Shown here piece by piece: positions 2,898-60,235 of a stretch of 64,000 nucleotides of DNA. Position 1 is the stretch's first letter. Each line of letters starts with the position of its first letter. The notes below the pieces were generated by a model. It did not search any database and was not told where the DNA came from. It saw only the letters and a list, made by a program, of their open reading frames with translations. The translations under genes and the position numbers were made by a program. The stretch is from a bacterium (GTDB lineage Bacteria > UBP6 > UBA1177), in contig JAGCNV010000079.1 in NCBI GenBank assembly GCA_017645765.1, positions 1 through 64,000 of the forward strand, read 5' to 3'.

Positions 2898-3030
2898 TTG
2901 AACCTCCGGAGAATGATTATTCAAAAAGACTTGAAATTATATTTTTCATTGAAAATTTAGCAAGCGAAAAAGGCAAAATTTTTAAGAAAAATCAAAGGTT
3001 TTGACGGGAAAAGAACCTTTTCAGGAAATG

Positions 3031-4368: not shown

Positions 4369-4520
4369 GACAACCTCCATAAAGTTAAAAAACCAAACAA
4401 GCATATATTTAGTTGCACAAAGTGCCAATTTTTCTGACTCAAAAATTCAAAAAAAAAAAAAAATGACAAGACTTTAATTTTATTGATAAATTTTTGCGAT
4501 TTTTTTTATAAATCAGAGTT

Positions 4521-7181: not shown

Positions 7182-7182
7182 T

Positions 7183-7959
7183 TTATTCTCCGATTTTCCT
7201 CTTTTCGTGTCCGTTGTATATCGCAGCTTTCTGGTCGATGTTGCGCATCGGTTTCTGCGTAGTCTTTTCTTCTACGTAATGAGCCATGAGCCCCGGAACT
7301 CTCGAAATCATGAATATTCCGTTCGCAAGTTCCGCCGGGATGTCGAGAGCGAGAAGGACGGCGCCGATCATTCCGTCAACGTTGACCGGAAGTTTCGTTC
7401 CCTTTACTTTGAAAATGTTGGCTTCGATCATTTTTGCGAGTTTGATGAAGAAAAGTTTCTCTTCGGGAAGGTTTTTGAAGCAGATCTCTGCAAGTTTGAC
7501 GCTTCTCGGATCTTCGGTGTGGACTCTGTGGCCCATGCCGGGGAATCTGAATTTCTGCTCGAATTTCATCTTTACGAACTCTTCTACTTTCGCTTCGTCA
7601 AGCTCGTTTCCGCAGTATTCAGCGGCCGATTTGAGCATTTTCATCGTGTTTTCTATTGCTCCGCCGTGGAAAGCGTTGATCGCCAGAAGTCCCGATGCTA
7701 CAGCAGCATTGAGCGGTGCGCCCGTCGAAGTCGCGTTGAGGGTAGCCAGTGCGCTAGGAGGAGTTACGCCGTGATCGACTGAAGAAACCAGAACAGCCTG
7801 GAAAACTCGTCCTTCTTCTTTTGTCGGAAGTTCGCCCTTCAAAATCAGGTAAACCGTTTCCGCGTAGCTCAGATTTTCCATGATGTCTTCTATCGCATAG
7901 CCTCTGATCAAAATTTCGTTCGGTTTGATAGAAGTAACAGCCGTTGTCCATTCTGCCAT
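7183..7959 (-). CDS. Citrate synthase-family protein, probably citryl-CoA lyase-like
   Basis: A 258-aa protein, much shorter than citrate synthase (about 370-430 aa) and close to the length of citryl-CoA lyases. It keeps the family catalytic set: His in NAFHGGAIE, His in GHRVHTEDPR and Asp in NVDGMIGA. Citryl-CoA lyase cleaves citryl-CoA to acetyl-CoA and oxaloacetate, as in the two-step reverse TCA route; a citrate-synthase-like condensation on another acyl-CoA cannot be excluded. The start chosen is the ATG after GGAGGAAATC, four codons inside the longest frame. No citryl-CoA synthetase or other TCA gene is in view; the only partner is valS, one base downstream. Confidence 0.7.
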   Translation of the reverse strand: MAEWTTAVTSIKPNEILIRGYAIEDIMENLSYAETVYLILKGELPTKEEGRVFQAVLVSSVDHGVTPPSALATLNATSTGAPLNAAVASGLLAINAFHGGAIENTMKMLKSAAEYCGNELDEAKVEEFVKMKFEQKFRFPGMGHRVHTEDPRSVKLAEICFKNLPEEKLFFIKLAKMIEANIFKVKGTKLPVNVDGMIGAVLLALDIPAELANGIFMISRVPGLMAHYVEEKTTQKPMRNIDQKAAIYNGHEKRKIGE

Positions 7960-8076
7960 GATTTCCTCCAAAATTTCAATAAATTAAATAACTTACATTA
8001 GAGCCGGCAAATTTCCCGGAAACCGGAAAACAAGCGGTCCGCTAAAAAACCAAATATATTAGCAGAAACGATTTTT

Positions 8077-8105
8077 TTTTCAATTATGGCGATTTGAAAT
8101 ATAAT
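8077..8105 (+). promoter_or_regulatory. Probable promoter of dgt
   Basis: A perfect -10 TATAAT (8100-8105) with a poor -35 (TTTTCA, 17-nt spacer) in the divergent gap between the citryl-CoA-lyase-like gene and dgt. Confidence 0.5.
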
Positions 8106-8159
8106 CCTGCGAACGTAGAGACGTCATATTATGGCGTCTACAAAGGTTAGGAGAGAGAA

Positions 8160-9206
8160 ATGATAGAAAACATCCGTGAACATCTTGAAGAAATAGAAAA
8201 ACGGGAACTTTCGTGGGCTGCGGCGCTGAGTTCGCAGTCAAAAGGAAGAATGCGCGAAGAGGAACCGTGCAGCATCCGCCCCGCATTCCAGCACGACCGC
8301 GACAGGATCGTCCACACCAAGGCTTTCCGCAGATTAGGCGACAAAACACAGGTTTTCCTTTCGCCGAAAGGGAGCAACTACAGCAACCGCCTCACCCACA
8401 CGCTTGAAGTTTCGCAGATAGGCAGAACTGTGGCGAAGGCGCTTCTTCTCAACGAATCGCTGACAGAGGCGATAGGTCTAGGCCACGATTTGGGACACAC
8501 TCCTTTCGGTCATTCAGGCGAAAGAGCTTTAGGAAGACTCCTCAAAAACGGCTTCAGGCACGAGCAGCAGAGCCTGCGCGTCGTCGATTTTCTCGCGAAA
8601 AACGGCCAGGGGCTAAATCTTACTTACGAAGTCCGCAACGGGATAGTGCTTCACTCCAAAGGCAAAGGGCCTCTCATCAAAAAAACAGGCATTCCCGAAA
8701 CTCTTGAAGGTCAGATCATCCGCTTTTCTGATATCATTGCATACCTGAACCACGATATCGACGATGCCGTCCGCGGCGGATTCCTCGACATTAAAGACGT
8801 TCCGCACAAAGACATTCTGGGTGAAAGAGGCTCCCAGCGCATAAACGCGATGACGACAGACCTTATCTACAACAGCTACGAAGCGATTTCGGCACACGAG
8901 AAAATCATCCGCTTTTCCGACAAAATGGTGCAGATTATCGGCGATTTAAGGGAATTCATGTTCAAAAACGTTTATGAACTTCCCGCCATCAGAAAGGAAT
9001 TCGCCAAGGCCGAGCAGATTATTTCCGTCCTTTTCAAGCATTTTCAGGAAAATTACGAACTCATCATCAATTCGAACTTCATCCCAGTTTCGGATGATCA
9101 GGAAACAACGATTGCAGACTTCATCGCGAGCCTCACCGACTCTTACGCGATCCACCTCTACAACAATTTCTTCATCCCGAAAACACTGAAATTCCCGGAT
9201 ATTTAG
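8160..9206 (+). CDS. dgt: Deoxyguanosinetriphosphate triphosphohydrolase-like HD-domain protein
   Basis: A 348-aa HD-superfamily phosphohydrolase of the dGTPase type, releasing triphosphate from dNTPs to control the pool. Visible signatures are DRDRIVHTKAFRRLGDKTQVF (residues about 39-59), the first metal His in RLTHTLEVSQIGR, the HD pair in GLGHDLGHTPFGHSGE, and an Asp in IAYLNHDIDDAVRGG. Length is that of the shorter dGTPase-like family. The RBS is TAGGAGAGAGAA. It is transcribed alone, and its last four bases overlap the stop of the convergent lipoprotein gene. Confidence 0.9.
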   Translation: MIENIREHLEEIEKRELSWAAALSSQSKGRMREEEPCSIRPAFQHDRDRIVHTKAFRRLGDKTQVFLSPKGSNYSNRLTHTLEVSQIGRTVAKALLLNESLTEAIGLGHDLGHTPFGHSGERALGRLLKNGFRHEQQSLRVVDFLAKNGQGLNLTYEVRNGIVLHSKGKGPLIKKTGIPETLEGQIIRFSDIIAYLNHDIDDAVRGGFLDIKDVPHKDILGERGSQRINAMTTDLIYNSYEAISAHEKIIRFSDKMVQIIGDLREFMFKNVYELPAIRKEFAKAEQIISVLFKHFQENYELIINSNFIPVSDDQETTIADFIASLTDSYAIHLYNNFFIPKTLKFPDI

Positions 9207-11131
9207 TCAATATTTCTTACGCACCAGACTTTTCCCTGCACATTTGCCGAATTGACTGAGGAAAACGAACCGATAAAACCGCTGTTCCAGCCGAGAACAA
9301 GGTTGTGATTGTCGGAACGAATAGATGAAGACCATATAAAATCATATTGACGCAAAAATTCTTCTTCGGACAAATCATTGCATTTGCAGTTTTCCAGACA
9401 GGCTGCCGACAAACAGCTGTTTTTCTCGCTCGCTTTGCACTCTCCGTCCGGTTTTACCTTTTGGCACCCGGTTTCAAAGATCCTGAGTTCGTCTATGGTG
9501 GGAAGTCTCCAGTCTGCATAGCCGAAATCTTTAAGATCTTCGCAGTATTGTTTAGCTCTTTCCCACTTCATAAAGCGCTCGGCAGGAAAAGCCCACAATG
9601 TTTTTGCAGAAGAATTTTTGCAAGGAAGACCATTGCCGCCGCAGGATTTTATAGACACGCAGCTGCTTCCTGCTCCGGGAAGGTTGTAATAACCCTCAAG
9701 ACAGCCGCAGATATAATGTTCGGAATCGGTCACAGTGCAGATTCCGTCAGCCCCCTCGACTTCTTCGCATGGATTGTCTTCGCACGGGCTATTGCATTTC
9801 CCGTTTTTCCAGTAAAAACCTTCATCACATTGGCAGAGAGGTTCGCCTAAAGAAGATTTTTCCAGACATAATCCTGTCGAATGTTCGATATCTTTGCACA
9901 GATTGTCGTCACAGAGTTTTTCGCAAAGCGACCCGTTCCACCCATAACCTTCCTGACAGACGCATCCGTCCTCTTTCAAAAAAAGCTCTGCAAACGAAGC
10001 GCACTTTTTTCCTGTCCAGAGCTCCCCGTCGCCGCATGGATCCGAGGCGGCGCACAATACATTTAAACGGGTGTCCTTGGATACTGCGTCAACTATAAGC
10101 AAAACATCGGAGGAATAAGTTTTCCACGCAAATGTCGGATTTGACGCAGATGTCGTTGATGTCCAGAAATCATCACAATTCTTGTGAAGAGACAAAGCTT
10201 CATTTCTGTTCGGCAGCTTCCAGTCCGATATTTCGGCATAAGTCAGATTTTCGCAGTAAGAAAGAGCCTCTTCCCAGTTTTTGCCGCTGTATTCACTGCC
10301 CTGCAGCACAAGCCTGTTTTGGACATCGTTGTATATTTCGTAGCCTTCTCCTGAAAAGAGATAAGCGTTACAGCTTGAACGCCGTCTTACTTTGCCGCGA
10401 ACGCATCTGATGTTGTTGTAATCTTCCGGAACATAGTTTCTTATCTGAATATCTGAATAAGAACCGTCCTTGAAATCGACCCCGAGGTTGTAAACATTTT
10501 CAGAATGGTTCCCGAGAGCCTCGTGATAGAATTCTCCGGAAAAGAAAAATTTTGAAGGAGTGTCAGGAAAATAAACTGTATCGACGGCAGGTTCGAAAGT
10601 GCCTCCGTCAACTATCAGAAACAGTTCTTCCATAGCCGGCGTTCTCCAGTCCCAATAACCGCCGATTTCCTTTCTTTTACCGCAATAGTCATACATTATC
10701 TGGTTATGGTTGCCTTTTGCTGAAAAACTCTGCCTGTCCCACTCAAGCCCGGTGTTGTTGTCAACAACCGTTTCGCCGTCGTCGTACTTGTTGACTGTAT
10801 AATTTTTCGGAAGACATTTTCCAAGCTTGGCATACTGTGCATCCTGACCGTAAAAAGGTTTCCCTTCTTTCGGACACGGAATCTCCTTTTCCATATCGTA
10901 GCACTTCGTCTGACCTGTGCAGACTGCACCTCTGAAATCAGTAATGACATCTTCTTCAGGAGCTGAATCATCATTGTTTTCGGTGTCGGTTTCAGAATCG
11001 TTTTCGGGAACTCCGTCAGCTGTATCAGAATCAGGTACAACCGCCGCTACATCATCGTCAAGAGGCGTTTTTGAACCGCCGCCGCATGAAATAAGAAGGA
11101 AAATCAATAGAATTGAAAAAAGAGTTTTCAT
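9203..11131 (-). CDS. Large lipoprotein with three DUF1566-like modules and EGF-like Cys-rich segments
   Basis: 642 aa; signal MKTLFSILLIFLLISC with lipobox ISCGGG, then an Asp/Glu linker (DSDTADGVPENDSETD). Module one has WDRQSFSAKGNHNQIMYDYC and YWDWRTPAMEELF; module two has NWEEALSYCENLTYAEISDWKLPNRNEA; module three has KWERAKQYCEDLKDFGYADWRLPTIDELR. Each is a DUF1566-type DW[RK]LP repeat. Between modules two and three lie Cys-rich EGF-like stretches (CVCQEGYGWNGSLCEK, CQCDEGFYWKNGKC, CGCLEGYYNLPGAGSSC). RBS GAGGTCTCGTC. Likely a surface adhesive or binding protein; ligand unknown. Confidence 0.82.
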   Translation of the reverse strand: MKTLFSILLIFLLISCGGGSKTPLDDDVAAVVPDSDTADGVPENDSETDTENNDDSAPEEDVITDFRGAVCTGQTKCYDMEKEIPCPKEGKPFYGQDAQYAKLGKCLPKNYTVNKYDDGETVVDNNTGLEWDRQSFSAKGNHNQIMYDYCGKRKEIGGYWDWRTPAMEELFLIVDGGTFEPAVDTVYFPDTPSKFFFSGEFYHEALGNHSENVYNLGVDFKDGSYSDIQIRNYVPEDYNNIRCVRGKVRRRSSCNAYLFSGEGYEIYNDVQNRLVLQGSEYSGKNWEEALSYCENLTYAEISDWKLPNRNEALSLHKNCDDFWTSTTSASNPTFAWKTYSSDVLLIVDAVSKDTRLNVLCAASDPCGDGELWTGKKCASFAELFLKEDGCVCQEGYGWNGSLCEKLCDDNLCKDIEHSTGLCLEKSSLGEPLCQCDEGFYWKNGKCNSPCEDNPCEEVEGADGICTVTDSEHYICGCLEGYYNLPGAGSSCVSIKSCGGNGLPCKNSSAKTLWAFPAERFMKWERAKQYCEDLKDFGYADWRLPTIDELRIFETGCQKVKPDGECKASEKNSCLSAACLENCKCNDLSEEEFLRQYDFIWSSSIRSDNHNLVLGWNSGFIGSFSSVNSANVQGKVWCVRNID

Positions 11132-11236
11132 GACGAGACCTCACGAAAATTAAACAAAAGCGGAAACATTATATTGATGTTAGAATTAAAAGAAAGAGAT
11201 GTTTGCAACTATCTAGCAGAAATTTAACCGACTTTT

Positions 11237-12574
11237 TTACAGGCACATCGCCATGTAAAGCGGAAGATGCAGTATCCCGTATTTTTCTGCGACATCTTTC
11301 GGGTAAAGAATGTATGGTGTACCAGTTTTTGCAGAAAATTTTCTCAAAAATTTGTCAAGTGATGCGTGGGAACGGTAAGAAGCTGATTTAACTTCTATCG
11401 GAGAGATCTTTTTGCCGTTTGCGATAAGGAAGTCGATTTCTATGTGATTTTCCCGATGAAGGTTGTCGCAGCGAGAGTAAAAATAGAGTTTATGGCCGTT
11501 TGTGCGAAGCATCTGCGCTACGATGTTTTCCATGATCATCCCTTCGTTAATATCGATTTTATCGAAGAGAACCGCCTTGTAGAGCTCGTTTGCGGTATAG
11601 GATTTATCCATGAAAGTCAGCGTTACAAGAAGTCCTGTGTCTGCCATATAGCATTTCTGCGTCGAGTGTTCCGAGGTCAGGGCAAGCCCGATGTTGGGAT
11701 CCGTCGAATTGTAGCAGGAATTTGTAACCATAGCTTCGTTAAGCCAGATAAAAGAATCCTCGTAACTTCTGAAACGGGCGTTTTTGTCGATTGCGGAAAA
11801 AGTGTATTTCTTTTCCTTTTTCGAGAGCTGTCCGGGAATTTCGTCAAAAACTGCGTAAACTTTTTCCTCGTAACCTGCCGCAAATTTGGAAATGTCATCG
11901 CGGTAAAGGCGTAAAATCTTTCTTTTTGCTTCGTCAGCTGCGGCAAAATCCTTTTCTTTGAGATATGCAAGAACCGATTGCGGCATTCCTCCAACAAGGA
12001 CATACTGTCTGAAATCATTCATTATTTTTCTGTGAAGTGCCTGTCCTAACGGTTTCTTTTCTTCAAAACACTGCCGGATTAAAGGAACCGTCGCCTCATC
12101 ACCCATGGCCCAGAGAAATTCCTCGAAATCAAGCGGAAACATCTCGATATGCTCTTCTTCCGAAGGAATTATGATGTTTTCGGTGTTCTTTTTCAGCCTG
12201 ATCAGCGAACCTGTTTCCAGATAATCGTAACGCCCGTCAGCAACCAGATATTTTATCAGCTGGCGTGCTCTCGGAAACTGCTGGACCTCGTCAAAAACGA
12301 TCAGAGAGTCTCTTCTATAAAGTTTTGTAGAATAAAAAGATGAAAGCTTTGCTAAAAAAAAGTCGAGATTAGAGCTTTCGTTTTCAAAAAGTGAAGTTAT
12401 TTCCGGCGACACATTGCCAAAATCTATAATGATATAGCTTTTATACTCCTGTTTTGCGAACAGACTTGCGATATAACTTTTTCCGACACGCCGAGCCCCG
12501 TCAATAAGGAGAGCCGAAGAACCGCCTGACTTCGTTTTCCACTCAAGCATTTTCTGATAAATTTTTCTTTTCAT
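11237..12574 (-). CDS. AAA+ ATPase with C-terminal DUF4143
   Basis: 445 aa. The N-terminal AAA_14 ATPase has Walker A IDGARRVGKSY (about residues 24-34), Walker B SLIVFDEVQQFPRAR (about 91-105) and a sensor-like YLETGSLIRLKK. It is followed by LVGGMPQSVLAYL and a DUF4143/PD-(D/E)XK-like C-terminus with HIEIDFLIANGKKISPIEVKSA. Proteins of this class are abundant in anaerobes, often in many copies and with clade-hopping phylogenies, but their role is not established. The visible E-x-D...E-V-K residues fit a nuclease-like fold. Its 5' side holds a regular array of short repeats, described separately. Confidence 0.85.
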   Translation of the reverse strand: MKRKIYQKMLEWKTKSGGSSALLIDGARRVGKSYIASLFAKQEYKSYIIIDFGNVSPEITSLFENESSNLDFFLAKLSSFYSTKLYRRDSLIVFDEVQQFPRARQLIKYLVADGRYDYLETGSLIRLKKNTENIIIPSEEEHIEMFPLDFEEFLWAMGDEATVPLIRQCFEEKKPLGQALHRKIMNDFRQYVLVGGMPQSVLAYLKEKDFAAADEAKRKILRLYRDDISKFAAGYEEKVYAVFDEIPGQLSKKEKKYTFSAIDKNARFRSYEDSFIWLNEAMVTNSCYNSTDPNIGLALTSEHSTQKCYMADTGLLVTLTFMDKSYTANELYKAVLFDKIDINEGMIMENIVAQMLRTNGHKLYFYSRCDNLHRENHIEIDFLIANGKKISPIEVKSASYRSHASLDKFLRKFSAKTGTPYILYPKDVAEKYGILHLPLYMAMCL

Positions 12575-12624
12575 ACCAAGCCTCGAAAGAACTTAATAAA
12601 ATCAGTATCATAATAATTAAAAAT

Positions 12625-12737
12625 CACGAAAAAGCAAGTTAATAAGTGCCCATTTTGCACGAAAAAGCAAGTTTCTGACACCGATTTTGCACGAAAAAGC
12701 AGGTTCAAGAATGTAATTTTTCACGATTGCACCGGTT
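12625..12737 (-). repeat. Four regularly spaced 16-bp repeats upstream of the DUF4143 ATPase
   Basis: cacgaaaaagcaagtt occurs at 12625-12640 and 12658-12673, with one change (aggtt) at 12690-12705 and in degenerate form (cacgattgcaccggtt) at 12722-12737. The period is 33, 32 and 32 bp. Copies 2-4 are preceded by a T-rich stretch (ttttg in two of them), so a TTGC...GCAA micro-hairpin forms around two units. The spacers are unrelated. The array ends 50 bp before the ATPase start codon and faces it, so it is part of that gene's leader or operator region. Confidence 0.85.
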
Positions 12738-12772
12738 TTAAAGATAAGTTATTGAAGGATTTTCTTCAGAAA

Positions 12773-14722
12773 TTATTTCAGCATCTTGAGGTCAAGTCCG
12801 CCGGGATACATGTAGCTTACATCCATTCCCCAGCCGTAGACGAGGATCCCGCATGAATCGGAACAGGTCAGGTGGTGGCGCATGAACCACGAATCGAGTT
12901 CGAAAATGTAGTAGACTTTGTCGCTGCCGTAGACTGCACCCTGCATTTCGCCGTCCATTGCCGGTACCGGGGTTTCGCCGTCAAGCAGTATCTCGACTCC
13001 GGGATCTGTGATGACTTCGACGAAATTGGCGTTTCCGCCGTCGGTTTCGGTATCTTCGACCGAGTATGCGAAGAAATAGTATTCGTTTCTGAACTGCTCT
13101 ACCGGTGGGATTATGGTCATCGCGGGATCGCCGAAACAGTATGAATGCGAAGAACCGGGAGAATCATCACGGCAGTCTGAGCTGATATCCTCAGAACCGC
13201 TTAAATACTGAGTTACCTGCACAGGTTTGTCCGCTTCGATAAACGATGTTCCGGAAGTAAACCAGCTGCCGCCGTCATCAATATAGTTGAGTTCGTATTC
13301 GAAAAACTGTCCGGCGTTGAGTGTAACAGTTTTTTCGGTGCCGTTTCTGTACTCTTCATCCTTTATCTTTATCGAGACATTTGTCGCATCGTTAGCCGCA
13401 ACGACACGGACAAAATCACGGGCGTAACTTCTCGGTTTCGTTTTTACGACCGCATAGTGGGTTCCCCAGCGGGTAACCGGAAGAAGCTGATGTTCAAGAT
13501 GGTCGCAGTAGCCTCTGTCTTTCGGGATATCGGCACAGCCGTGACCGCCGAAAACAGCGACCGGCGCACACTTTAAATATGGATTTTTGCACGAGATCCT
13601 CGTTCCCGTAAAATCAGCACCGTTCATCGTCGTAACGATGTTCAGGACTTCTCCTTTCGCAACTTCGACAGTCATCGGAACACCTGCCGAAGTACCGGGA
13701 ATCTTACCGCTCGGTGCAATGTCGGCAGTAGGCGTGATCTCAAGTTCGACAGGTATGTCATAGGCTCCGATTATCGTGAAATAGCCGGGACCGTCGCCGC
13801 CTACGCCGGTTTCATCGGGATAACTCGCGACAATATAGTCCGCACCGAGCTTCGTCGAAGGAAGTACAAGTGAAGCATCATTCGAATGAAGGTTGTAGAA
13901 CGGGTTGAACTGGTAGACGATTATCGGAAGATCCGATTTTATGTGGTAACTAAGGAAACTCGCGGCAGTGCCGATAAGCATTCTGTCTTCTTGTCTCGGT
14001 GTTACGACAATGGTTTCCTGAGGATTTACCGTGATGACAAAAGATGAATCGTGCTTATCGCACTTCATATCGTCATATTCCTGGCCAAGAAACGACTTTG
14101 TGACTTTGTAGCAGTATTCAAAACTCTCGATCTTTGTTTCAGAGCCGTCTTCCAGAGTCTTGAAAAATTCAATTGTCGCAGTTTCCGTCGGATGAGAGTT
14201 GGCAAGAGCAACCGCAAAAGAATCATTGCTCGTGATTCTTTCACTCTTTCTGCCGTTGTAGAGTTTAGCCGTGTAAAAATCGCATCCGAGATAGCTGCTT
14301 CCAGCCGAAGCACATGCCTTAGTTTCGCATTTTCCGTAAGAGCAGAAGAAACCTTCCGCACACTTCTCTACGGCAGGCGTTTCAACTCCAGATCCATCAT
14401 CTTTGCATAAGAAAATGCTGCCCGGATCGCTAGCGTCACAAACTTTCATCCCTGGATTACAGCGTGTTGTGACAGGCGTCGTATCACTATCAGGCTGCTC
14501 CTGACTGTTTCCGCCGTCAGTATCCGCATCAGGCAAAGAACTCTCGCCGTCATGACCCGGATTGTTTTCAGAATCGTTCGTTTCAGAACCGTCTCCGTCG
14601 GAAACCACTTCTCCGCCGTCGCTGTCTGGAAGCGCAATTTCTTCTTCATCATCCGATACCGTGCATCCCGCAAACATAAACGCCGAAACAAAAACAAACA
14701 TTAAAAAAATCACTTTTTTCAT
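12773..14722 (-). CDS. Lipoprotein with IgGFc-binding-like domain
   Basis: 649 aa; signal MKKVIFLMFVFVSAFMFAGC (lipobox FAGC), Asp/Glu/Asn-rich linker to about residue 85, then a Cys-containing patch (CNPGMKVCDASDP...CAEGFFCSYGKC). From about residue 145 a long domain matches the IgGFc-binding N-terminal family common in Myxococcota: FAVALANSHPTETATIEFF, VVTPRQEDRMLIGTA, YHIKSDLPIIVYQFNPF, SNDASLVLPSTKLGADY, KPVQVTQYLSGSE and GDPAMTIIPPVEQFRNEYYFF. It probably acts as a surface-exposed beta-rich binding protein; the name reflects a mammalian mucin-associated protein and should not be read as function. RBS GAGGTGAACCA. Confidence 0.85.
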   Translation of the reverse strand: MKKVIFLMFVFVSAFMFAGCTVSDDEEEIALPDSDGGEVVSDGDGSETNDSENNPGHDGESSLPDADTDGGNSQEQPDSDTTPVTTRCNPGMKVCDASDPGSIFLCKDDGSGVETPAVEKCAEGFFCSYGKCETKACASAGSSYLGCDFYTAKLYNGRKSERITSNDSFAVALANSHPTETATIEFFKTLEDGSETKIESFEYCYKVTKSFLGQEYDDMKCDKHDSSFVITVNPQETIVVTPRQEDRMLIGTAASFLSYHIKSDLPIIVYQFNPFYNLHSNDASLVLPSTKLGADYIVASYPDETGVGGDGPGYFTIIGAYDIPVELEITPTADIAPSGKIPGTSAGVPMTVEVAKGEVLNIVTTMNGADFTGTRISCKNPYLKCAPVAVFGGHGCADIPKDRGYCDHLEHQLLPVTRWGTHYAVVKTKPRSYARDFVRVVAANDATNVSIKIKDEEYRNGTEKTVTLNAGQFFEYELNYIDDGGSWFTSGTSFIEADKPVQVTQYLSGSEDISSDCRDDSPGSSHSYCFGDPAMTIIPPVEQFRNEYYFFAYSVEDTETDGGNANFVEVITDPGVEILLDGETPVPAMDGEMQGAVYGSDKVYYIFELDSWFMRHHLTCSDSCGILVYGWGMDVSYMYPGGLDLKMLK

Positions 14723-24148: not shown

Positions 24149-24166
24149 TCAGGGAAATATCAAGTA

Positions 24167-24193
24167 TAAAAAAAGGGCGGCTTCTGCCGCCCC
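24167..24193 (-). terminator. Strong terminator shared by the RiPP precursor gene and gcvPB
   Basis: gggcggc (24175-24181) and gccgccc (24186-24192) form a 7-bp GC stem. Read on the minus strand it is followed by at least seven T, ending the precursor gene; in the plus direction the flank is CAAAAATTTTTGG, a weaker terminator for gcvPB. Confidence 0.82.
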
Positions 24194-24219
24194 AAAAATT
24201 TTTGGATGTTGTCTGATTG

Positions 24220-24486
24220 TTACTGCATATAACCCTGACATGAAGCTGTGCAACCGCCATAGCAGCTTCCATCACAAGAGCCCTGACAACCGTAACCACA
24301 AGCTGTAGGCTGCTGAGAAATTTCTTCAGCATCTACAACAGCTGATGCCGGAAGAGAAAGAAGCTGATTCAGGTCGTTAACATCTTTTTCAGGCAGCGTA
24401 AACTGTGCAACAACCGGTGTAAACATTGCAAAAAGCATTGCTTCCTTAACAAGATTTTCCGGAAGCAGAAGTTTTGAAATTTTCAT
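24220..24486 (-). CDS. Putative RiPP precursor with six Cys at an exact 4-residue period
   Basis: 88 aa, starting at the ATG after AAGGAGGATCTC. Residues 1-60 look like a leader: MKISKLLLPENLVKEAM, a hydrophobic stretch (LFAMFTPVVAQF) and an acidic/Leu-rich part (LPEKDVNDLNQLLSLP). The last 27 residues are the presumed core, with Cys at 63, 67, 71, 75, 79 and 83 separated by small and polar residues (GYG, QGS, DGS, YGG, TAS). Such CxxxC ladders next to a SPASM radical SAM enzyme are typical of sactipeptide/ranthipeptide-type precursors, for example the Clo7bot-like Cys-rich peptides. The precursor role is inferred from this neighbourhood. Modification, cleavage and export genes are not obvious apart from the maturase. 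Confidence 0.78.
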   Translation of the reverse strand: MKISKLLLPENLVKEAMLFAMFTPVVAQFTLPEKDVNDLNQLLSLPASAVVDAEEISQQPTACGYGCQGSCDGSCYGGCTASCQGYMQ

Positions 24487-24511
24487 GAGATCCTCCTTAA
24501 AAAAAATTATT

Positions 24512-24532
24512 AAAAAAGGGGTTGTTAACCCC
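24512..24532 (-). terminator. Hairpin-T-run between the radical SAM gene and the precursor gene
   Basis: Minus strand GGGGTT AAC AACCCC followed by six T, three bases beyond the maturase stop codon. The precursor lies downstream, so it is either expressed by read-through or from its own promoter in the short AT-rich gap. Confidence 0.75.
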
Positions 24533-24534
24533 AA

Positions 24535-25650
24535 CTAAACTCGTTTCCCTCCGAACAGACTGTTTATCTTTAAAACAGCTTTTATTGTCTGCTTTTCTGT
24601 TTCTGTGATTTCAGACATATTTTTGTTTAGAAATCTTTTACCCTGGAAATATGCATTTGCAATCGCTTTAATTTTGGCAAGTTCACATTTCATCTGCGAT
24701 TTTTCGGCGAAAGATCCTGTTAAAGCAAAATTAGCTGCATAGCAGTCGATGCAGACAGGAAAAAGATAACAATTGTTAAAACAATCATCATTTATAAACA
24801 GTTTCTCATCTGATAAATCCATTTTCTTTATTTCAGCAATCTGTTCTTCATTCATGGAAACAGGAGAAGAAAATGTACAAAAATATTCCTGACCGTCTAA
24901 ATCTATTACGCGCATTCCGTTGCCGCCTATTCCGCACTGTCTGCGATATTCTTTTTCAGCTTCACATCTTGCCAAAGGAAGACTGAAAATCTGTGCCGGC
25001 TTAACTTCGGGGTGAGCAACATACCAGTCAGCCAGTTTAAAAAGCTGCTCCGTTATGATTTCCAGATTTTTACCGGGATCCTTGATATCCTGACCTTCGG
25101 CAAAATTTGATCCGTTGATCTTAAACCCTTTTTCATGTAAAAAAATGAAGTCTTCAGCAAGATCAGCTAAATTTTTATCGGAAATAGTCATTTTTACAGG
25201 TTCGTCAGGCCAGTTTTTATGAAAAAAATCCAAATCAATTTTATCAAATGAATTGCTGCGGTTCAGATCATGCGTCTTTTTTTTGCCGTCCAGACTAAGA
25301 CAGATATAAAAATAATTCTTGTGGGCAGTCAGCCATTCTTTAATTTCGTCCGTCAGAACAGTTCCGTTCGTATCTGCATAAAAGCAGTAGCTCTTAGGCC
25401 AAGTCCTGCTCCATGTCCACTCGCAGACTTCTTTTACAATAGGAAATTCAAGGAAAGGTTCTCCACCGAAAAAACCTATTTTAATCTCTTCGTAATCTCC
25501 TGTTGTCAGGTACTTTTCAACAGTTTTTTTGGCAAATTCGATATCCATTTTTCGCAAATCTTTGTGATGTTCGTAACAGTAAACACAGTTCAGATTGCAA
25601 CGGTGCGTTATAATCAGCGTCAGTTCAAAGGGCGGCTTCTTTTCAACCAT
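24535..25650 (-). CDS. Radical SAM/SPASM peptide maturase
   Basis: 371 aa from the ATG preceded by AAGGAGAAAATA (an upstream in-frame start overlaps this RBS). The radical SAM [4Fe-4S] motif is CNLNCVYC (about residues 24-31), followed by GFFGGEPFLEF (the GGEP SAM-binding motif) and SLDGKKKTHDLNR. The C-terminal SPASM-type region has CGIGGNGMRVIDLDGQEYFC and CFNNCYLFPVCIDCYAANF plus a later Cys, enough for auxiliary clusters. Enzymes of this class install thioether or C-C crosslinks in Cys-rich peptides, and the Cys-ladder peptide immediately downstream is the evident substrate. Divergent from an XRE regulator. Confidence 0.85.
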   Translation of the reverse strand: MVEKKPPFELTLIITHRCNLNCVYCYEHHKDLRKMDIEFAKKTVEKYLTTGDYEEIKIGFFGGEPFLEFPIVKEVCEWTWSRTWPKSYCFYADTNGTVLTDEIKEWLTAHKNYFYICLSLDGKKKTHDLNRSNSFDKIDLDFFHKNWPDEPVKMTISDKNLADLAEDFIFLHEKGFKINGSNFAEGQDIKDPGKNLEIITEQLFKLADWYVAHPEVKPAQIFSLPLARCEAEKEYRRQCGIGGNGMRVIDLDGQEYFCTFSSPVSMNEEQIAEIKKMDLSDEKLFINDDCFNNCYLFPVCIDCYAANFALTGSFAEKSQMKCELAKIKAIANAYFQGKRFLNKNMSEITETEKQTIKAVLKINSLFGGKRV

Positions 25651-25689
25651 TATTTTCTCCTTATCAGCATGAACCAAAAAATTCCGGTA

Positions 25690-25717
25690 AATATACCACG
25701 AAAGGTTGTAAAATCAA
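25690..25717 (-). promoter_or_regulatory. Promoter of the radical SAM/RiPP locus
   Basis: Minus strand -35 TTGATT (25712-25717), 16-nt spacer, -10 TATATT (25690-25695), within the divergent region shared with the XRE gene. Confidence 0.55.
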
Positions 25718-25792
25718 GAAAACAAAACCTTTTATTGGTGTTTTTGCTTTAAAAACTACATTAAATGCGGTTCTTTTAGAAATTTTTATATT

Positions 25793-25798
25793 TATATT
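25793..25798 (+). promoter_or_regulatory. -10 box suggesting a leaderless XRE transcript
   Basis: TATATT ends eight bases before the ATG of the XRE gene, which has no Shine-Dalgarno sequence. Transcription would begin at or next to the start codon. No convincing -35 is present. Confidence 0.35.
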
Positions 25799-25806
25799 TA
25801 CACGCC

Positions 25807-26145
25807 ATGGATGTGAAGAAGATTTTCGGCAGTAATCTGCGCCAATACAGAAAAAAGAATCACCTGACACAGGAAGCTCTCGCTGAAGCAATAGGTGTAA
25901 CTTCCAAGCATCTGGGGCTTATCGAAAACGGTTCGACTTTCGTTTCGGCAGAGCTTATCGAAAAAGCTTCAGCATTCCTCGGCATTTCTCCGGCAACTCT
26001 CTTTTATTCCGATGAAGAAATTTCAGGCAGTGACAGTTTCTTAGGCACAGTTAACCGCGTGATTGATGAAGAAATGGCTGAGGCATTAAAAAATATCAGG
26101 CATAAAATCCGCGAAAATCTTAAAGCAGAATCTTCCGGGAAATAA
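25807..26145 (+). CDS. XRE-family transcriptional regulator
   Basis: 112 aa. The N-terminal HTH (residues about 9-65) reads LRQYRKKNHLTQEALAEAIGVTSKHLGLIENGSTFVSAELIEKASAFLGISPATLF, a classic Cro/C1-type fold. The C-terminal part is short and charged, without a ligand domain. It is divergent from the radical SAM gene and probably controls it. The gene has no visible RBS and may be leaderless. A terminator hairpin follows, overlapping the end of the convergent RAYT gene. Confidence 0.88.
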   Translation: MDVKKIFGSNLRQYRKKNHLTQEALAEAIGVTSKHLGLIENGSTFVSAELIEKASAFLGISPATLFYSDEEISGSDSFLGTVNRVIDEEMAEALKNIRHKIRENLKAESSGK

Positions 26146-26192
26146 GCAGGGAATAAGAATCAACTTTCAAATAATCAGTTCAGTCTTTTCCG

Positions 26193-26210
26193 ACGGATTT
26201 TATCCGTTTT
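26193..26210 (+). terminator. Terminator of the XRE gene
   Basis: acggat / atccgt perfect 6-bp stem with a 3-nt loop followed by TTTT. It includes the stop codon of the convergent transposase-like gene. Confidence 0.6.
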
Positions 26211-27201
26211 CAATTATAAATTTTCCAATCTCATTCAACGCCACAAAACGATAACGTTGCGTTGATGCGGAAACAGGCTGATAAGCAATATGTTTTTCTT
26301 CCGCCTTTTGTCGAAGCGTTTTTTCTGCGGCTGTGCTAATCATCTGAGAAGTAATTGTCTGTGTCGTCGGTTCCAAAAGCAGCAAATGTCCTTTTGAACA
26401 CGATTCAAAATAAAGGCCGCCAGGCTTGTAATACTTTTCATGCGGAGAACCTTCGCCCGGGAAACCGTCGCTTAGCAGAACAACCAAGTGCATGCCTTGT
26501 TCACGCAATGTACGGGCAATTACCTGTTCGCCCCTGCTGATTGCCGCCGTGTAAGTAACTGCGCCGTTTTGCGCAGCCGTCAATACGAATTGCAACCGCT
26601 GTTTAATTTCTTCGTCTGTGCTGCTTCTGGACATTTCCACAAACTGACGATCGGGCCAATTCAGCAGAAAATGGTTGCCTAAAGACGTGAATGTCAAGCC
26701 GCAGATTCCTGTCTGACGGTGCATACGAAACATATCGGGATTCTGTTTGCGCTGCCAGGCACGTTCTGCATTGGCATACACATATTCTATCATCGCTTTC
26801 AACTGTCCTTTGTGCGAAAGAACACGGTAAAACGGCGGTGCATCATAAATATTTCCGTCAAATCCCAACTTCAGAGCTTCGGCTTTGCAACCCTGCATAT
26901 AGCCGCGCACGACTTCTCTTATGCTTCTTCTCATGGAACATATTACCTGTAAAACCATGTGGTGGTGATCCGGCATCACTTTGTCGGCGAGAATTTTTAC
27001 TTCCGGACACAATTCAAGCATACGCTCTTGCTGTTTTATGAGAATCCAGCCTATCGGAGATTTTTCTACTACAGCGCAACGACCATCGTGACCAAGTTTG
27101 CCGAAAAGCGGCCTACGGTCTTTTGCAACCATTGTTGCATGCACGATAATCGGTTTTCGCCACGCGCCTGGCTGTAGCCATGTAAATTTTTCATTCGTCA
27201 T
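26200..27201 (-). CDS. IS200-like (RAYT-type) HUH transposase with C-terminal extension
   Basis: 333 aa. The N-terminal Y1-transposase-like domain has IIVHATMVAKDRRPLFG, the metal-binding HUH segment KVMPDHHHMVLQV and a candidate catalytic Tyr in REVVRGYMQGCKAEALKLG. The C-terminal half (HLVVLLSDGFPGEGSPHEKYYKPGGLYFESCSKGHLLLLEP) is an extra domain that reminds me of DprA/SMF-like Rossmann folds; similar fusions are common in Bacteroidetes. Chosen start: ATG after GAGGCGGTCAATTT. Single gene with no terminal repeats of its own in view, as expected for RAYTs. Transfer from another phylum is plausible but not tested. Confidence 0.72.
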   Translation of the reverse strand: MTNEKFTWLQPGAWRKPIIVHATMVAKDRRPLFGKLGHDGRCAVVEKSPIGWILIKQQERMLELCPEVKILADKVMPDHHHMVLQVICSMRRSIREVVRGYMQGCKAEALKLGFDGNIYDAPPFYRVLSHKGQLKAMIEYVYANAERAWQRKQNPDMFRMHRQTGICGLTFTSLGNHFLLNWPDRQFVEMSRSSTDEEIKQRLQFVLTAAQNGAVTYTAAISRGEQVIARTLREQGMHLVVLLSDGFPGEGSPHEKYYKPGGLYFESCSKGHLLLLEPTTQTITSQMISTAAEKTLRQKAEEKHIAYQPVSASTQRYRFVALNEIGKFIIENG

Positions 27202-27331
27202 AAATTGACCGCCTCTATATCGAATTGAGAATAAAATTCTCAAGCAATTAACCGAACGATATATTTACAATCATTATTAAATAAATCAAATTATTCTTTG
27301 ATCTTTGAATTTTACTAGAATCTGTTACCGT

Positions 27332-39277: not shown

Positions 39278-40051
39278 TTAAAAAAACAATGAATATTCCA
39301 AACAATATTCTGCTGATTCGCTGTCTTTCTCATATTCACGCTCAAAACTGATTTTTTGTCCGTGCCTTTCTGTTGCATGCCAGTGCGTTATCGGAAAATC
39401 CGTCCCGAAAAACAATTTTCCGTTTTTACCGGCGAAGCAGTTTTCTTTAAGAATATTCAGCGATTTTTGATCGACAAAAGAGCTGTCAGCATAAACATTC
39501 CGATATTTAGAAAGCATTTTTACAGTCTGTTCTATCGGTCTGCAGTGAGCAAGTATAACTTTAACATCCTGATATTCTTTAAAAAAACGCTCGAATTTTC
39601 CTGCCTCCTCGAACTCGTCATATCCGCTGTGGATAAGCAGAGGCACGTTGTTCCGCCCGGCAAAATCAAAAATTTCGTGAACAATATCCGTTGTGCCGCA
39701 ATCATTCAAATCCCAGTTGTGTGCCCTGGGATGGATTTTTATTCCGCAATAAGGCAGAGTTGCAAAAGCCTTTTCAACCGGAACTCCCTGTTTGCGATAG
39801 TCAGGCACATACCAAAGCAATGGTTTGACAACACTTTGAGAATATTGAGTTTTTCCGTCTTTTACCGAATATATTCCACCGATTTCCGCTTCTATTTCTG
39901 AATATTTCACGCCGAAAATACAACTGCTTGTTGAAGAAAAAACCAATCCGTCGATTTTTACTTTTCGGGAGGTCAGAACTGTATCAAAAACCTGTTGATA
40001 ATCGTAATATCTGTCGCTCCACCAGCCGATATGAACATGGTTGTCAATCAT
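39278..40051 (-). CDS. Amidohydrolase-family (PF04909-type) metal-dependent hydrolase
   Basis: 257 aa TIM-barrel hydrolase of the ACMSD-like type. Metal ligands in the expected order: HxH in DNHVHIGWW, His in LLIHSGYDEF, His in VILAHCRPIEQT and Asp in LFFGTDFPITHW. The segment CGIKIHPRAHNWDL lines the active site. It overlaps the radical SAM gene by ATGA, so the two are translationally coupled and it likely acts on the same peptide or on a fragment of it. Substrate unknown. The C-terminus is slightly short but shows no frameshift. Confidence 0.78.
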   Translation of the reverse strand: MIDNHVHIGWWSDRYYDYQQVFDTVLTSRKVKIDGLVFSSTSSCIFGVKYSEIEAEIGGIYSVKDGKTQYSQSVVKPLLWYVPDYRKQGVPVEKAFATLPYCGIKIHPRAHNWDLNDCGTTDIVHEIFDFAGRNNVPLLIHSGYDEFEEAGKFERFFKEYQDVKVILAHCRPIEQTVKMLSKYRNVYADSSFVDQKSLNILKENCFAGKNGKLFFGTDFPITHWHATERHGQKISFEREYEKDSESAEYCLEYSLFF

Positions 40052-41511
40052 TTTTTGTGTTTTTCCTGATATTCAATCGCCCATCTGTCAACAATTTCGC
40101 GGTTTTTCGCAACAGCGTCGCAAAAATGGCGATTAAGTTTAAGCGGATCACCGTCCGGATTTTCATTTGCATTTCTTACCATGCACATCGAACAGAAAAT
40201 CTGGTTTTTACAATCGGCGCACTCTTTGAAATCTTTATTTCTCAAATTACGTAACCAGTTGATTTTGGGAGAGTTTTTCCAAATATCCTTCAAGCTTTTC
40301 TCATAAAGATTTCCGCAGACACAGTTCTGCCAGCCGGCACACGGATAAACATTTCCGTTCGCAACCATGCAAATCGAAGAAATTCCGACTCCGCAGACGA
40401 TTCCTTCAGGATCTTTTTTATATTCGGCACACTGTTTGAAATAATCATCTGTCATTGTCAGATTTTTATATTTTTCACCATCTTCCACAATTATTTCAAT
40501 CACATCGCCGACTTCATCGATCGAAAGCCTGTTTTCCAAATTTTCTGTAGTATTGTCGCATTTTGCCATAATGCAGTAATTAATCAGAACACGCACTCTC
40601 AGCTTGTCGCCAAACCTTAAAACTCCACTAAAACTCTCTTTGTTCTGCTTCATAACGGGGCAAGAAATTTGAAGCGGGATATCGTTTTCAACAAGTTTTA
40701 TAATTCCGTCGTATGTTTTCTGCCAAGAGCCGGGAATTGTCGTAATTTTATCGTGAATTTCAGGAATCATGCTGTAAAGCGAAGTCTGGACAGAAGAAAT
40801 CCTGCTCGTTTTCATCGCCTCGACTATTTCATCTGTCAAAAGAGTCAGATTTGATAGAACATTCAATGAAAAATCGTAATGTTTCGCCATTTTGAAAAAT
40901 TCGAGAAACTGGGGATGCAGCATTGGCTCGCCGCCTGACAAAGTCAGTTCTAAAACCCCCATTTCCCTGCATTGATCCAGCACTGAATAAAAAAGTTCCG
41001 GTTTTATGTCTGTATTTTTACATTCATGCGGAATATAGCAGTGAATGCACCTTTCATTGCAACGGCTCGTCAGCTCTATCTGTAAGCTGGTCAGATGCGG
41101 ATTCTGTTTGAAATGCTCAGCAAGAAAATACGGCGTCGTTTCTTCCGCCCTCGGCACTTTCGGAGCAAAATTTTCTTTAACAGTTTTCGCTTCAAGCTGA
41201 GAATAGGAAAAACGGACATCTTTTCTGTCAAGTTCTTCAGGCGTTTCTCCGCTCACGATAAAACCGTCTTCCTCCAAAATACGATAAAAATCAATCACAT
41301 CCTGACGAATATCCTCAATCGTGACATCGTTGAAAGCAACGATGATTTTATTCAGCAGTTCTTCCAAACTTTGCGGTTCTCTCGAAAGGGCGAGAAGAAA
41401 AACCGCACCACTTTCATTGCAGACTCTGTCGCTGAAATCAGCTTTGTTTGTGATGTAACCGACATTTTCATATTTTCTGATAAATGCGTCGAATTTCTGT
41501 CTATATAACAT
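40048..41511 (-). CDS. Radical SAM/SPASM enzyme with N-terminal PqqD-like domain
   Basis: 487 aa. Residues of about 1-95 resemble a PqqD/RRE-type peptide-binding winged helix (CNESGAVFLLALSREPQSLEELLNKI...FYRILEEDGFIV). The radical SAM core has CNERCIHC (about residues 151-158) and LTLSGGEPMLHPQF, and the SPASM part has CGVGISSICMVANGNVYPC, CVCGN and CADCKNQIFCSMC. This layout is that of peptide maturases that recognise a leader through an RRE. Its start overlaps the stop of the 116-aa gene (TAATG) and its stop overlaps the amidohydrolase start. The candidate substrate is the 53-aa Cys peptide at the head of the operon. Confidence 0.85.
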   Translation of the reverse strand: MLYRQKFDAFIRKYENVGYITNKADFSDRVCNESGAVFLLALSREPQSLEELLNKIIVAFNDVTIEDIRQDVIDFYRILEEDGFIVSGETPEELDRKDVRFSYSQLEAKTVKENFAPKVPRAEETTPYFLAEHFKQNPHLTSLQIELTSRCNERCIHCYIPHECKNTDIKPELFYSVLDQCREMGVLELTLSGGEPMLHPQFLEFFKMAKHYDFSLNVLSNLTLLTDEIVEAMKTSRISSVQTSLYSMIPEIHDKITTIPGSWQKTYDGIIKLVENDIPLQISCPVMKQNKESFSGVLRFGDKLRVRVLINYCIMAKCDNTTENLENRLSIDEVGDVIEIIVEDGEKYKNLTMTDDYFKQCAEYKKDPEGIVCGVGISSICMVANGNVYPCAGWQNCVCGNLYEKSLKDIWKNSPKINWLRNLRNKDFKECADCKNQIFCSMCMVRNANENPDGDPLKLNRHFCDAVAKNREIVDRWAIEYQEKHKK

Positions 41512-41861
41512 TATTTGATCTCCAGTTTTTCCTTCAATTCTTGAGCTGTCCTTATTTCATACTTCAACAATTCAGGCTTCAAGACAGAATTTGCTGAAAT
41601 TGATATCTTTTTATTATCACCTTTAACATCAATCACATCCTGTCTGTTGAAACATAGAAATCTCGGATTGTTTGTCGGATTTTCGAAAACAACTATCATT
41701 AAAAAATCGCACCCTTTCTTGATACTGTCCAACGAATTGTTTGTACTGTCATTTTTTATGTAAGTTGTTTTTATCTGTATCTTTTTCGGATCGATTAGTT
41801 TGTCAAATTCATCCTCAACAATTATTTGACCGATTTTGTTCATAGCTTGTATGTAATTCAA
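41511..41861 (-). CDS. Protein of unknown function in the second RiPP operon (TTG start)
   Basis: 116 aa. The best start is TTG, four bases after GGAGG; the first in-frame ATG is 18 bases further and has no RBS. Segments such as FLMIVVFENPTNNPRFLCFNRQDVIDV look beta-rich, with a helical end (ELLKYEIRTAQELKEKLEIK). No motif recognised. Placed between the precursor peptide and its maturase, it may be a partner or immunity protein. Confidence 0.65.
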   Translation of the reverse strand: MNYIQAMNKIGQIIVEDEFDKLIDPKKIQIKTTYIKNDSTNNSLDSIKKGCDFLMIVVFENPTNNPRFLCFNRQDVIDVKGDNKKISISANSVLKPELLKYEIRTAQELKEKLEIK

Positions 41862-41890
41862 AAAACCTCCGTTTTTTTAACAAATCCTAA

Positions 41891-41910
41891 AGGGTGGCTT
41901 TCACCACCCT
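41891..41910 (-). terminator. Attenuator-like hairpin after the 53-aa precursor gene
   Basis: AGGGTGG / CCACCCT 7-bp stem around six bases, just beyond the precursor stop. The downstream T-run is poor (TTAGGATTTG), so it would stabilise or partly terminate, giving more precursor than enzyme transcript, as is common in RiPP operons. Confidence 0.6.
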
Positions 41911-41923
41911 AAAATTGCAATAG

Positions 41924-42085
41924 TTACTGTGTCACCGCACAATTTTTACATTTCATAGCCTCGGAAGGACAACTATTGCGGCCACGACTAGCATTCATTG
42001 TGCTGCCTATGTTTGTCGGGCAACCAGCCGCATAGCTTCCTTGCGGAGCTGTTTGTGCATAAAATACAGGTTTTTGATAAGGCAT
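41924..42085 (-). CDS. Putative 53-aa RiPP precursor with four C-terminal Cys
   Basis: Starts at the ATG after GGAGGAAAAA. Leader-like part MPYQKPVFYAQTAPQGSYAAG, then Cys at 22, 39, 46 and 49, with CKNC near the end (KCKNCAVTQ). It is the first gene after a strong promoter, followed by a hairpin and then an RRE-bearing radical SAM enzyme, which is the usual position of a precursor. The sequence is unlike the 88-aa Cys-ladder peptide at 24.2 kb. No known family recognised; it could instead be a small metal-binding protein. Confidence 0.68.
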   Translation of the reverse strand: MPYQKPVFYAQTAPQGSYAAGCPTNIGSTMNASRGRNSCPSEAMKCKNCAVTQ

Positions 42086-42203
42086 TTTTTCCTCCATTGA
42101 AAAAACAGTAAAATATCTGAAACGGGACTCCCGAAACAGTCTTTTTGAAAAATCATAATAACTTACCCTCCCCCCGACTACGGAAACGCAGGATTCCGGC
42201 AAT

Positions 42204-42232
42204 ATTTTAACGTTTTATTTACCATTAGTCAA
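42204..42232 (-). promoter_or_regulatory. Promoter of the second RiPP operon
   Basis: Minus strand -35 TTGACT (42227-42232), exact 17-nt spacer, -10 TAAAAT (42204-42209). The -35 overlaps a pair of similar words (TTAGTCAA and AACAGTCAA) that could be operator half-sites for the divergent XRE protein. Confidence 0.72.
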
Positions 42233-42271
42233 CATAATCTTTACTAACAGTCAAAAATTATTTTCAGTATG

Positions 42272-42280
42272 TGCTATATT
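42272..42280 (+). promoter_or_regulatory. Extended -10 promoter of the divergent XRE gene
   Basis: TGC-TATATT, an extended -10 element, 22 bases before the ATG; the -35 region is weak. Confidence 0.5.
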
Positions 42281-42302
42281 GAAAAAAGGAGGTGGTTTGA
42301 GT

Positions 42303-42635
42303 ATGGATGGCAAAACACTTGGCAAACGGGTGAAAGCATTAAGGCGTAAAGCCGGAATAACACAGCTTGACCTCGCATGCCGGGTAAATATCAGCGAAAG
42401 CTACATCGCGTTGATAGAAGCAGACAAACGAAAACCGGGAATGGATATAATCTCTACTTTGGCAAACGAATTTCATGTCTCCGTTGACTATCTTTTAAGC
42501 GGCAAAATATCAGAAGAAGACAATCTCATGCTCAAAGAATGGACATCTCTTATAAAGGAAAGACCTCAAAAAGATATCGAAAGCGCACTTAAAATCGTCC
42601 GCACTTTTTTTGAATGTGTGGACAGCAAAAAATAA
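42303..42635 (+). CDS. XRE-family transcriptional regulator of the second RiPP operon
   Basis: 110 aa; the ATG follows GGAGGTGGTTTGAGT. HTH in residues about 6-62: LGKRVKALRRKAGITQLDLACRVNISESYIALIEADKRKPGMDIISTLANEFHVSVDYLL. The short C-terminal part (DNLMLKEWTSLIKERPQKDIESALKIVRTFFE) is helical and may dimerise. It is divergent from the precursor gene, as the XRE gene at 25.8 kb is from its own radical SAM gene. Confidence 0.9.
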   Translation: MDGKTLGKRVKALRRKAGITQLDLACRVNISESYIALIEADKRKPGMDIISTLANEFHVSVDYLLSGKISEEDNLMLKEWTSLIKERPQKDIESALKIVRTFFECVDSKK

Positions 42636-54836: not shown

Positions 54837-54921
54837 CTCAGACCTCGATAAGAAATTCAAAGAAAAAAGCGTATGATTATATTTAGATTTTTATAAAAAT
54901 CCATAGAGTTTTTTGAGATTA

Positions 54922-58191: not shown

Positions 58192-58230
58192 TTTAAACCC
58201 CGTCGAAATTTTAAAGAAAAAAAGCAAAGC

Positions 58231-58258
58231 ATTATATATTGTTTTTAATTTTTTTCGA
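58231..58258 (-). promoter_or_regulatory. Possible promoter of the second subtilase
   Basis: Minus strand TATAAT (58231-58236) with a poor -35 (TCGAAA at 16-nt spacing). Lies in the divergent gap to the CotH genes, 40 bases before the start codon. Confidence 0.4.
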
Positions 58259-58363
58259 GTAAAAAATTCCTCTTTCTCCGACAACAAAAACTCTTGTTTT
58301 CCCTGAGATTTTTTTTAAAATCGACTGTTTTTATGACGTTTGGTCATTTTTCGGAGATTCGGC

Positions 58364-60217: not shown

Positions 60218-60235
60218 ATATTCCGGAGATAAGGC

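Follow-up and report, generated by a model that had tools for sequence, protein, structure and literature searches.

Among the described SPASM radical SAM peptide maturases, CteB and PapB fall on the side of QhpD and form non-alpha thioethers (PMC11002830). PapB links cysteine to aspartate or glutamate in CX3D motifs and tolerates spacings from CX0D to CX6D (PMC9413430), and most ranthipeptide systems possess an RRE (PMC7470986), in contrast to the enzyme described here. For the CXXX-repeat peptides and their TIGR04115 maturases no paper was found in the literature searched, and the crosslinks of these peptides therefore appear to be undescribed.

Three adjoining genes in a window of 64,000 nucleotides (the whole stretch of DNA that was analysed) were here compared with these systems. 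The window belongs to a 2.65 Mb MAG of a rumen bacterium (109 contigs, 99% complete; G000 in the following), in which each of the three genes is present as a single copy. Judged from sequence, peptide and enzyme most likely form a CXXX-repeat RiPP system, which is short and on a separate branch. The best explanation of the locus is a three-gene RiPP cassette in which an RRE-less SPASM enzyme would make a chain of thioether rings in the ladder of the precursor; we assign to it a probability of about 0.62. Two points are new with respect to an earlier inspection of the letters (the sequence-only reading in the following): the CXXX repeat is an already predicted target family, and the three genes are a discrete, horizontally exchanged cassette. 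The coordinates of all features are collected in Table 1.

Table 1. Features of the cassette and its borders in the window.
Feature	Position	Strand	Remarks
Left direct repeat CAGGGAA, 7 bp	24150..24156	+	possible target-site duplication
Mobile unit, three genes	24166..26147		~1.98 kb; common to G014, G015 and G016; absent at empty sites
Intrinsic terminator of peptide transcript	24166..24193	-	GGGGCGGCAGAAGCCGCCC followed by T-run; strong, predicted at 24174-24193; left edge of shared unit
Precursor peptide gene	24220..24486 (including stop)	-	88 aa; leader 1-62, core from 63
Ribosome binding site AGGAGG	24492-24497	-	5 nt upstream of ATG; read from sequence
Radical SAM/SPASM peptide maturase gene	24535..25653	-	372 aa; no N-terminal RRE
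Putative divergent promoter/operator region	25654..25806		between enzyme and XRE genes
XRE-family HTH regulator gene	25807..26145	+	112 aa; HTH_3 above Pfam cut-off; stop codon is right edge of shared unit
Right direct repeat CAGGGAA, 7 bp	26147..26153	+	flanks G000 copy

The start codon of the precursor gene is the ATG at 24486, which is supported by the orthologues; a mechanical ORF call begins at an upstream TTG and is 16 aa longer. The 88-aa peptide with six cysteines at an exact four-residue period, on which the sequence-only reading had been built, was recovered when coordinates and positions were re-read (Cys 63, 67, 71, 75, 79 and 83). Given the composition of the 33-residue C-terminal part itself, the exact odds of six cysteines in one period-4 run are 1.2e-5, and 14 of 1,000,000 shuffles of the same part contained such a run. 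The core comprises 26 residues of the form (C-x-G-x)n with the ladder CGYGCQGSCDGSCYGGCTASCQGYMQ. Its six cysteines are accompanied by one acidic residue only (D72), and the residue at i+4 of every core cysteine is again a cysteine or, for the last one, a methionine. The hydrophobic leader stretch that had been called unusual is likewise present: residues 16-27 (AMLFAMFTPVVA) have a mean Kyte-Doolittle value of 2.06 and are followed by Q-F. In the orthologues the variants VVA, AVA and VVS occur at this place, and small residues at -3 and -1 are kept. Judged solely from hydropathy and a few substitutions, the stretch may be a Sec-type signal with -3/-1 positions compatible with type I signal peptidase. 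The leaders of the relatives with 40% identical enzymes are not hydrophobic.

The SPASM radical SAM enzyme reported next to the peptide was confirmed by a match to Pfam Radical_SAM (PF04055) above the cut-off, a CX3CX2C motif (residues 19-26) and the complete set of seven SPASM cysteines (C240, C259, C291, C295, C301, C304 and C323), which are conserved in 8 homologues. No RRE domain was found in the enzyme: the first barrel strand lies at residues 9-14, before the CX3CX2C motif, and the predicted model contains no wHTH; since the chain starts directly with the barrel, there is no room for such a domain. A stand-alone RRE was also missing, as the 2-kb unit holds no further ORF of that size. 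Going by the model, the recognition of the leader by the enzyme must be RRE-independent. The AlphaFold2 model had a pLDDT of 77 and a pTM of 0.79, with the cluster loops and the SPASM part predicted partly at low confidence. CteB was the best PDB match both of the enzyme profile by sequence (5wgg/5why, E 3e-34, aligned only past CteB residue 93) and of the model by fold (E 7e-14, TM 0.68).

For the placement in known families, enzyme and peptide were scored against NCBIfam. The top match of the enzyme was PapB (NF047865; 127 bits, E 9e-37, cut-off 340), followed by the CXXX-repeat maturase TIGR04115 (106.8 bits, cut-off 350), the nif11-type (103 bits), CcpM (100 bits), SCIFF (TIGR03974; 86.5 bits, cut-off 425), RumMC (68.6 bits), NF038107 (CefA/CefB, 'Cys-every-fifth'; 59 bits, cut-off 600) and AlbA (36 bits), so that the maturases of thioether/ranthipeptide type outscored the sactipeptide enzymes RumMC and AlbA. 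The peptide scored 21.3 bits against TIGR04117 (positions 60-83 of the model; cut-off 50) and 12.5 bits against TIGR04114 (positions 1-18; cut-off 20). The curated cut-off was thus passed by no model for the peptide and by no named maturase family for the enzyme. The comparison with TIGR04115 was validated by two true members on the IMG/VR contigs L100 and L104, which reach 483 and 461 bits and stand beside long CXXX ladders. In a maximum-likelihood tree, which was midpoint-rooted and has several long branches that limit finer claims, the window enzyme, its relatives from the genus and the thinly sampled Bacteroidales homologues came out together as one clade (10 enzymes, support 100/100), which neighbours the TIGR04115 group and lies outside the TIGR04115 clade. 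Membership of the peptide in TIGR04114 or TIGR04117 and of the enzyme in TIGR04115 or PapB was rejected on the basis of the scores below cut-off and the tree position.

The Bacteroidales homologues of the clade are encoded on the Phocaeicola massiliensis plasmid OY725981 and on MT836223. The former enzyme lies beside two copies of the short CXXX peptide CGCSGDCGSNWM, and the latter beside the short CXXX peptide CKGTCRGTCGGSCNGR. MT836223 (L029, 615-5923), which is filed as a phage, comprises a radical SAM gene, the CXXX peptide, a further radical SAM gene, a ClpP-like protease and an ABC transporter, after which a TonB-receptor-like and a SusD-like gene follow. When viral contigs were scanned with only the two Bacteroidales enzymes as queries, nothing was found. 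The IMG/VR contigs L100 (4887-6944), L104 (4902-6896), L109, L113 and L101 encode CXXX-repeat maturases next to proteins with Cys ladders, the longest of which has 223 aa; in L101 a long C-terminal part without cysteines comes after the Cys region, and this part might be structural.

Within the genus, orthologous copies were present in four genomes, with enzymes 96-100% identical. The six cysteines are invariant across these copies, the X residues vary (GYG/GYS, QGS/SGS, YGG/HGG and TAS/TAT), precursor dN is below dS, and the Cys codons differ synonymously; the ladder is under purifying selection. Three further genomes of the genus (G012, G009 and G017) encode enzymes of approximately 40% identity. 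In G012 and G009 these stand beside CX3C ladders with an unrelated leader, namely one and three precursors, respectively, of which the longest ladder has about 18 CXXX units. In G017, whose enzyme is a close relative of that of G009, a tandem series of 'MTISEIIEL'-type peptides with many Cys, Asp and Glu residues was found, together with one short G009-type peptide. An adjoining Cys-rich peptide thus accompanies the enzyme in each of the 7 genomes of the genus that encode it, and a search of the genus with the peptide gave matches in enzyme-positive genomes and none in enzyme-negative ones. The sequence-only reading had stated that its interpretation would fall if the peptide were absent, or the Cys pattern lost, beside homologous enzymes. 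On the first count the interpretation stood throughout the genus, as a Cys-rich peptide adjoins each of the 7 enzymes; on the second, the relatives at 40% identity have retained the exact ladder only in part, and from the Cys/Asp/Glu-rich peptides that take its place in G017 it follows that a ladder is not obligatory in the wider clade. A tandem array of 'MTISEIIEL'-type Cys/Asp/Glu-rich peptides was observed in L012 (1464-2739), upstream of an enzyme gene with 84% DNA identity to one that adjoins CX3C ladders, i.e. a maturase with exchanged substrates.

That the peptide is a radical-SAM-modified RiPP, as had been proposed from the letters, is well supported by the strict pairing, the Cys conservation and the kinship to CXXX-repeat maturases, PapB and CteB; that the enzyme acts on this peptide and forms thioethers we infer, the latter as the likeliest reaction from its kinship to the QhpD/CteB/PapB side. 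The 88-aa precursor would be translated as a 62-residue leader and a 26-residue (C-x-G-x)n core, and its leader would be bound directly by the RRE-less enzyme, which would generate a 5'-deoxyadenosyl radical. The thiolates of the cysteines, for which an auxiliary Fe-S cluster is the probable anchor, would be joined to carbons of nearby ladder residues, and a chain of small thioether rings would result, with 2 Da lost per ring.

Several acceptor residues were considered. A ranthipeptide of the PapB/freyrasin type, in which every cysteine is bonded to an Asp or Glu at its beta or gamma carbon, would agree with PapB as top NCBIfam match, with its tolerance of CX0D to CX6D spacing (PMC9413430) and with the Cys/Asp/Glu-rich peptides of G017; with D72 as the one acidic core residue and Cys or Met at every i+4, however, at most one ring could be formed, and the score is far under the PapB cut-off, so that this reading is very unlikely. 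The PapB-type CX3D linkage across the ladder was rejected, as there is no Asp or Glu at any i+4, and this exact chemistry cannot account for the ladder.

Of the 103 CXXX units collected from 12 peptides, 60 have Gly at X2 and 71 have Ser, Gly or Thr at X3. For this reason the acceptors are probably the small residues Gly, Ser and Thr at X2 and X3, and more speculatively the next cysteine. The same predominance of Gly, which is the most conserved ladder residue and offers an alpha carbon only, would suit a sactipeptide with the Cys sulfur bound to the alpha carbon of Gly (or Ser/Ala) at X2 or X3. This reading is possible but on balance unlikely, as Gly may merely allow tight turns and the enzyme is closer to the non-alpha maturases QhpD, CteB and PapB than to AlbA, SkfB and RumMC. 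A bolder proposal combines a continuous ladder of Cys-to-Cys thioether/dithioacetal staples, in which the RRE-less enzyme would join the sulfur of each cysteine to a carbon of the next cysteine (i+4) or of an intervening Gly or Ser, with an exact ~1.98 kb unit in which the three genes travel and which has no transposase of its own; as a whole it is very unlikely. If true, the Cys-to-Cys staple ladder would be a crosslink type undescribed for known ranthipeptides.

The divergent XRE gene of the sequence-only reading was found again (25807-26145 on the forward strand), and in the proposed thioether cassette its product would control both transcripts. Between the enzyme and XRE genes only short AT-rich inverted repeats were found in the search for an operator, none of them convincing, and a promoter-like site on the reverse strand (25717-25690) did not score above shuffles. 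No exporter, peptidase or immunity gene adjoins the cassette, in agreement with the earlier statement that peptidase and exporter are missing there. The bifunctional peptidase-ABC exporter for which a genome search had been recommended did not turn up: Peptidase_C39 was found nowhere in the host genome, while the control search gave hits in 8 of 14 genomes, and a genome-encoded C39 peptidase-exporter was rejected. The modified peptide would probably exit by the general secretion route, for which the hydrophobic part of the leader would serve as a kind of signal sequence. The missing exporter, together with six cysteines within 21 residues that could bind Zn or Fe-S, would also fit a metallothionein-like peptide, whose ladder binds metal or forms disulfides and which the enzyme modifies otherwise; this is most improbable, since the peptide is strictly paired with a SPASM maturase and relatives of that enzyme adjoin CXXX ladders.

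The three genes are part of a mobile unit. Compared with G014, G015 and G016, the unit shows 95-98% DNA identity and the flanking DNA 78-93%, and in all copies the shared sequence stops a few bases at most from the terminator at one end and just past the XRE stop codon at the other. G009, G010 and G018 have the end of gcvPB joined straight to a RAYT-like gene without the cassette, and the 7-bp repeat that flanks the G000 copy occurs only once in the empty site of G009. In G016 the gcvPB site is empty and the cassette lies elsewhere, between genes which we take, from sequence recognition, to be MNT/HepT-like and purine-nucleoside-phosphorylase-like; the insert at this site measures 2.77 kb and consists of the cassette and the MNT/HepT-like genes, and G007 and G015 are without it. 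G014 and G015 share the gcvPB neighbourhood of G000 and may not represent a separate insertion; two independent insertion sites are certain and three likely. The unit contains no transposase or integrase gene, and between its ends no inverted repeat was seen by eye, only the 7-bp direct repeats of the G000 copy. Between G000 and G015 there are only ~5 differences in the central ~1.6 kb of the unit but ~20 in its final 250 bp, a part in which G014 is almost the same as G015. Recombination explains these mosaic copies, with MAG chimerism as a caveat that is lessened by the 440-kb contig of G014. The cassette is exchanged horizontally between species of the genus, which suggests that such cassettes spread ready-made between rumen species. 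The RAYT-like ORF next to the unit (26200-27243), with the HUH-type motif MPDHHHMVLQV, is present at the empty sites of the relatives, absent in G014 and G015, and had no Pfam or PHROG match.

A small mobile unit with its own XRE gene, adjoining an MNT/HepT-like pair in G016 and carrying neither exporter nor immunity gene, could also be a selfish element, in which a toxin-like or signalling peptide is kept by linkage to XRE and is not a secreted antibacterial. Such a role is compatible with thioether chemistry, but PADLOC gave no match for the peptide and only weak viperin matches for the enzyme, which are common across the radical SAM fold, and the patchy presence equally fits ordinary bacteriocin islands; it is regarded as quite unlikely. 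An anti-phage defence role was rejected on the same PADLOC result.

A second RiPP-like locus was noticed at 40048-42635 of the window, with a PqqE-like SPASM radical SAM protein of 487 aa that has an N-terminal extension, and with a small protein, a divergent XRE gene and a short Cys peptide (MPYQKPVFYAQTAPQGSYAAGCPTNIG...CPSEAMKCKNCAVTQ). A near-identical XRE gene occurs in L013 (2909-3364) with no radical SAM gene immediately beside it. Intergenic imperfect tandem CGTGACGACGAAACGACGTGACG repeats surround a 23S rRNA-IVP-like gene with a zinc ribbon in L015 (9800-11000) and L016 (10200-11300), and numerous large lipoprotein-like ORFs, rich in Cys or Asp and with acidic N-terminal stretches of the NDxDSDxD type, lie at 999-14722 and 52272-62128 of the window.

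With one 88-aa precursor, one RRE-less 372-aa enzyme and one regulator, the cassette is about the smallest complete CXXX-repeat version seen here, and it is therefore convenient for asking which bond the ladder receives and how a maturase without RRE finds its leader. With RumMC/ruminococcin C, AlbA and SkfB it has in common the radical SAM/SPASM formation of thioethers on cysteine that is proposed here, whereas the similarity is lower and SkfB is only a partial structural match; the precursors of these sactipeptides are not known to be ladders. CefA/CefB (NF038107) resembles it in the periodic-Cys target named for a SPASM maturase. CteA/CteB (SCIFF, thermocellin) provides the closest solved structure by sequence and fold, but the ~90-residue N-terminal extension of CteB before the aligned core is missing in the window enzyme. 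PapA/PapB (freyrasin) is the best family match and shares multiple cysteines with i+4 spacing and a SPASM maturase, whereas the core here is without CX3D or CX3E, the enzyme is without RRE and the score is under the cut-off. The CXXX-repeat systems (TIGR04114, TIGR04115, TIGR04117 of Syntrophobacter type and TIGR04119) differ in that the scores of the window proteins are far under their cut-offs, the ladder is short, the enzyme forms a separate clade with Bacteroidales enzymes and starts, with its 372 aa, at the radical SAM core, and the cassette is mobile and bears an XRE gene; shared with them are a small neighbouring ORF with cysteines at an exact period of four, C-x-G-x units and a SPASM enzyme beside the target, and in the tree theirs is the neighbouring clade.
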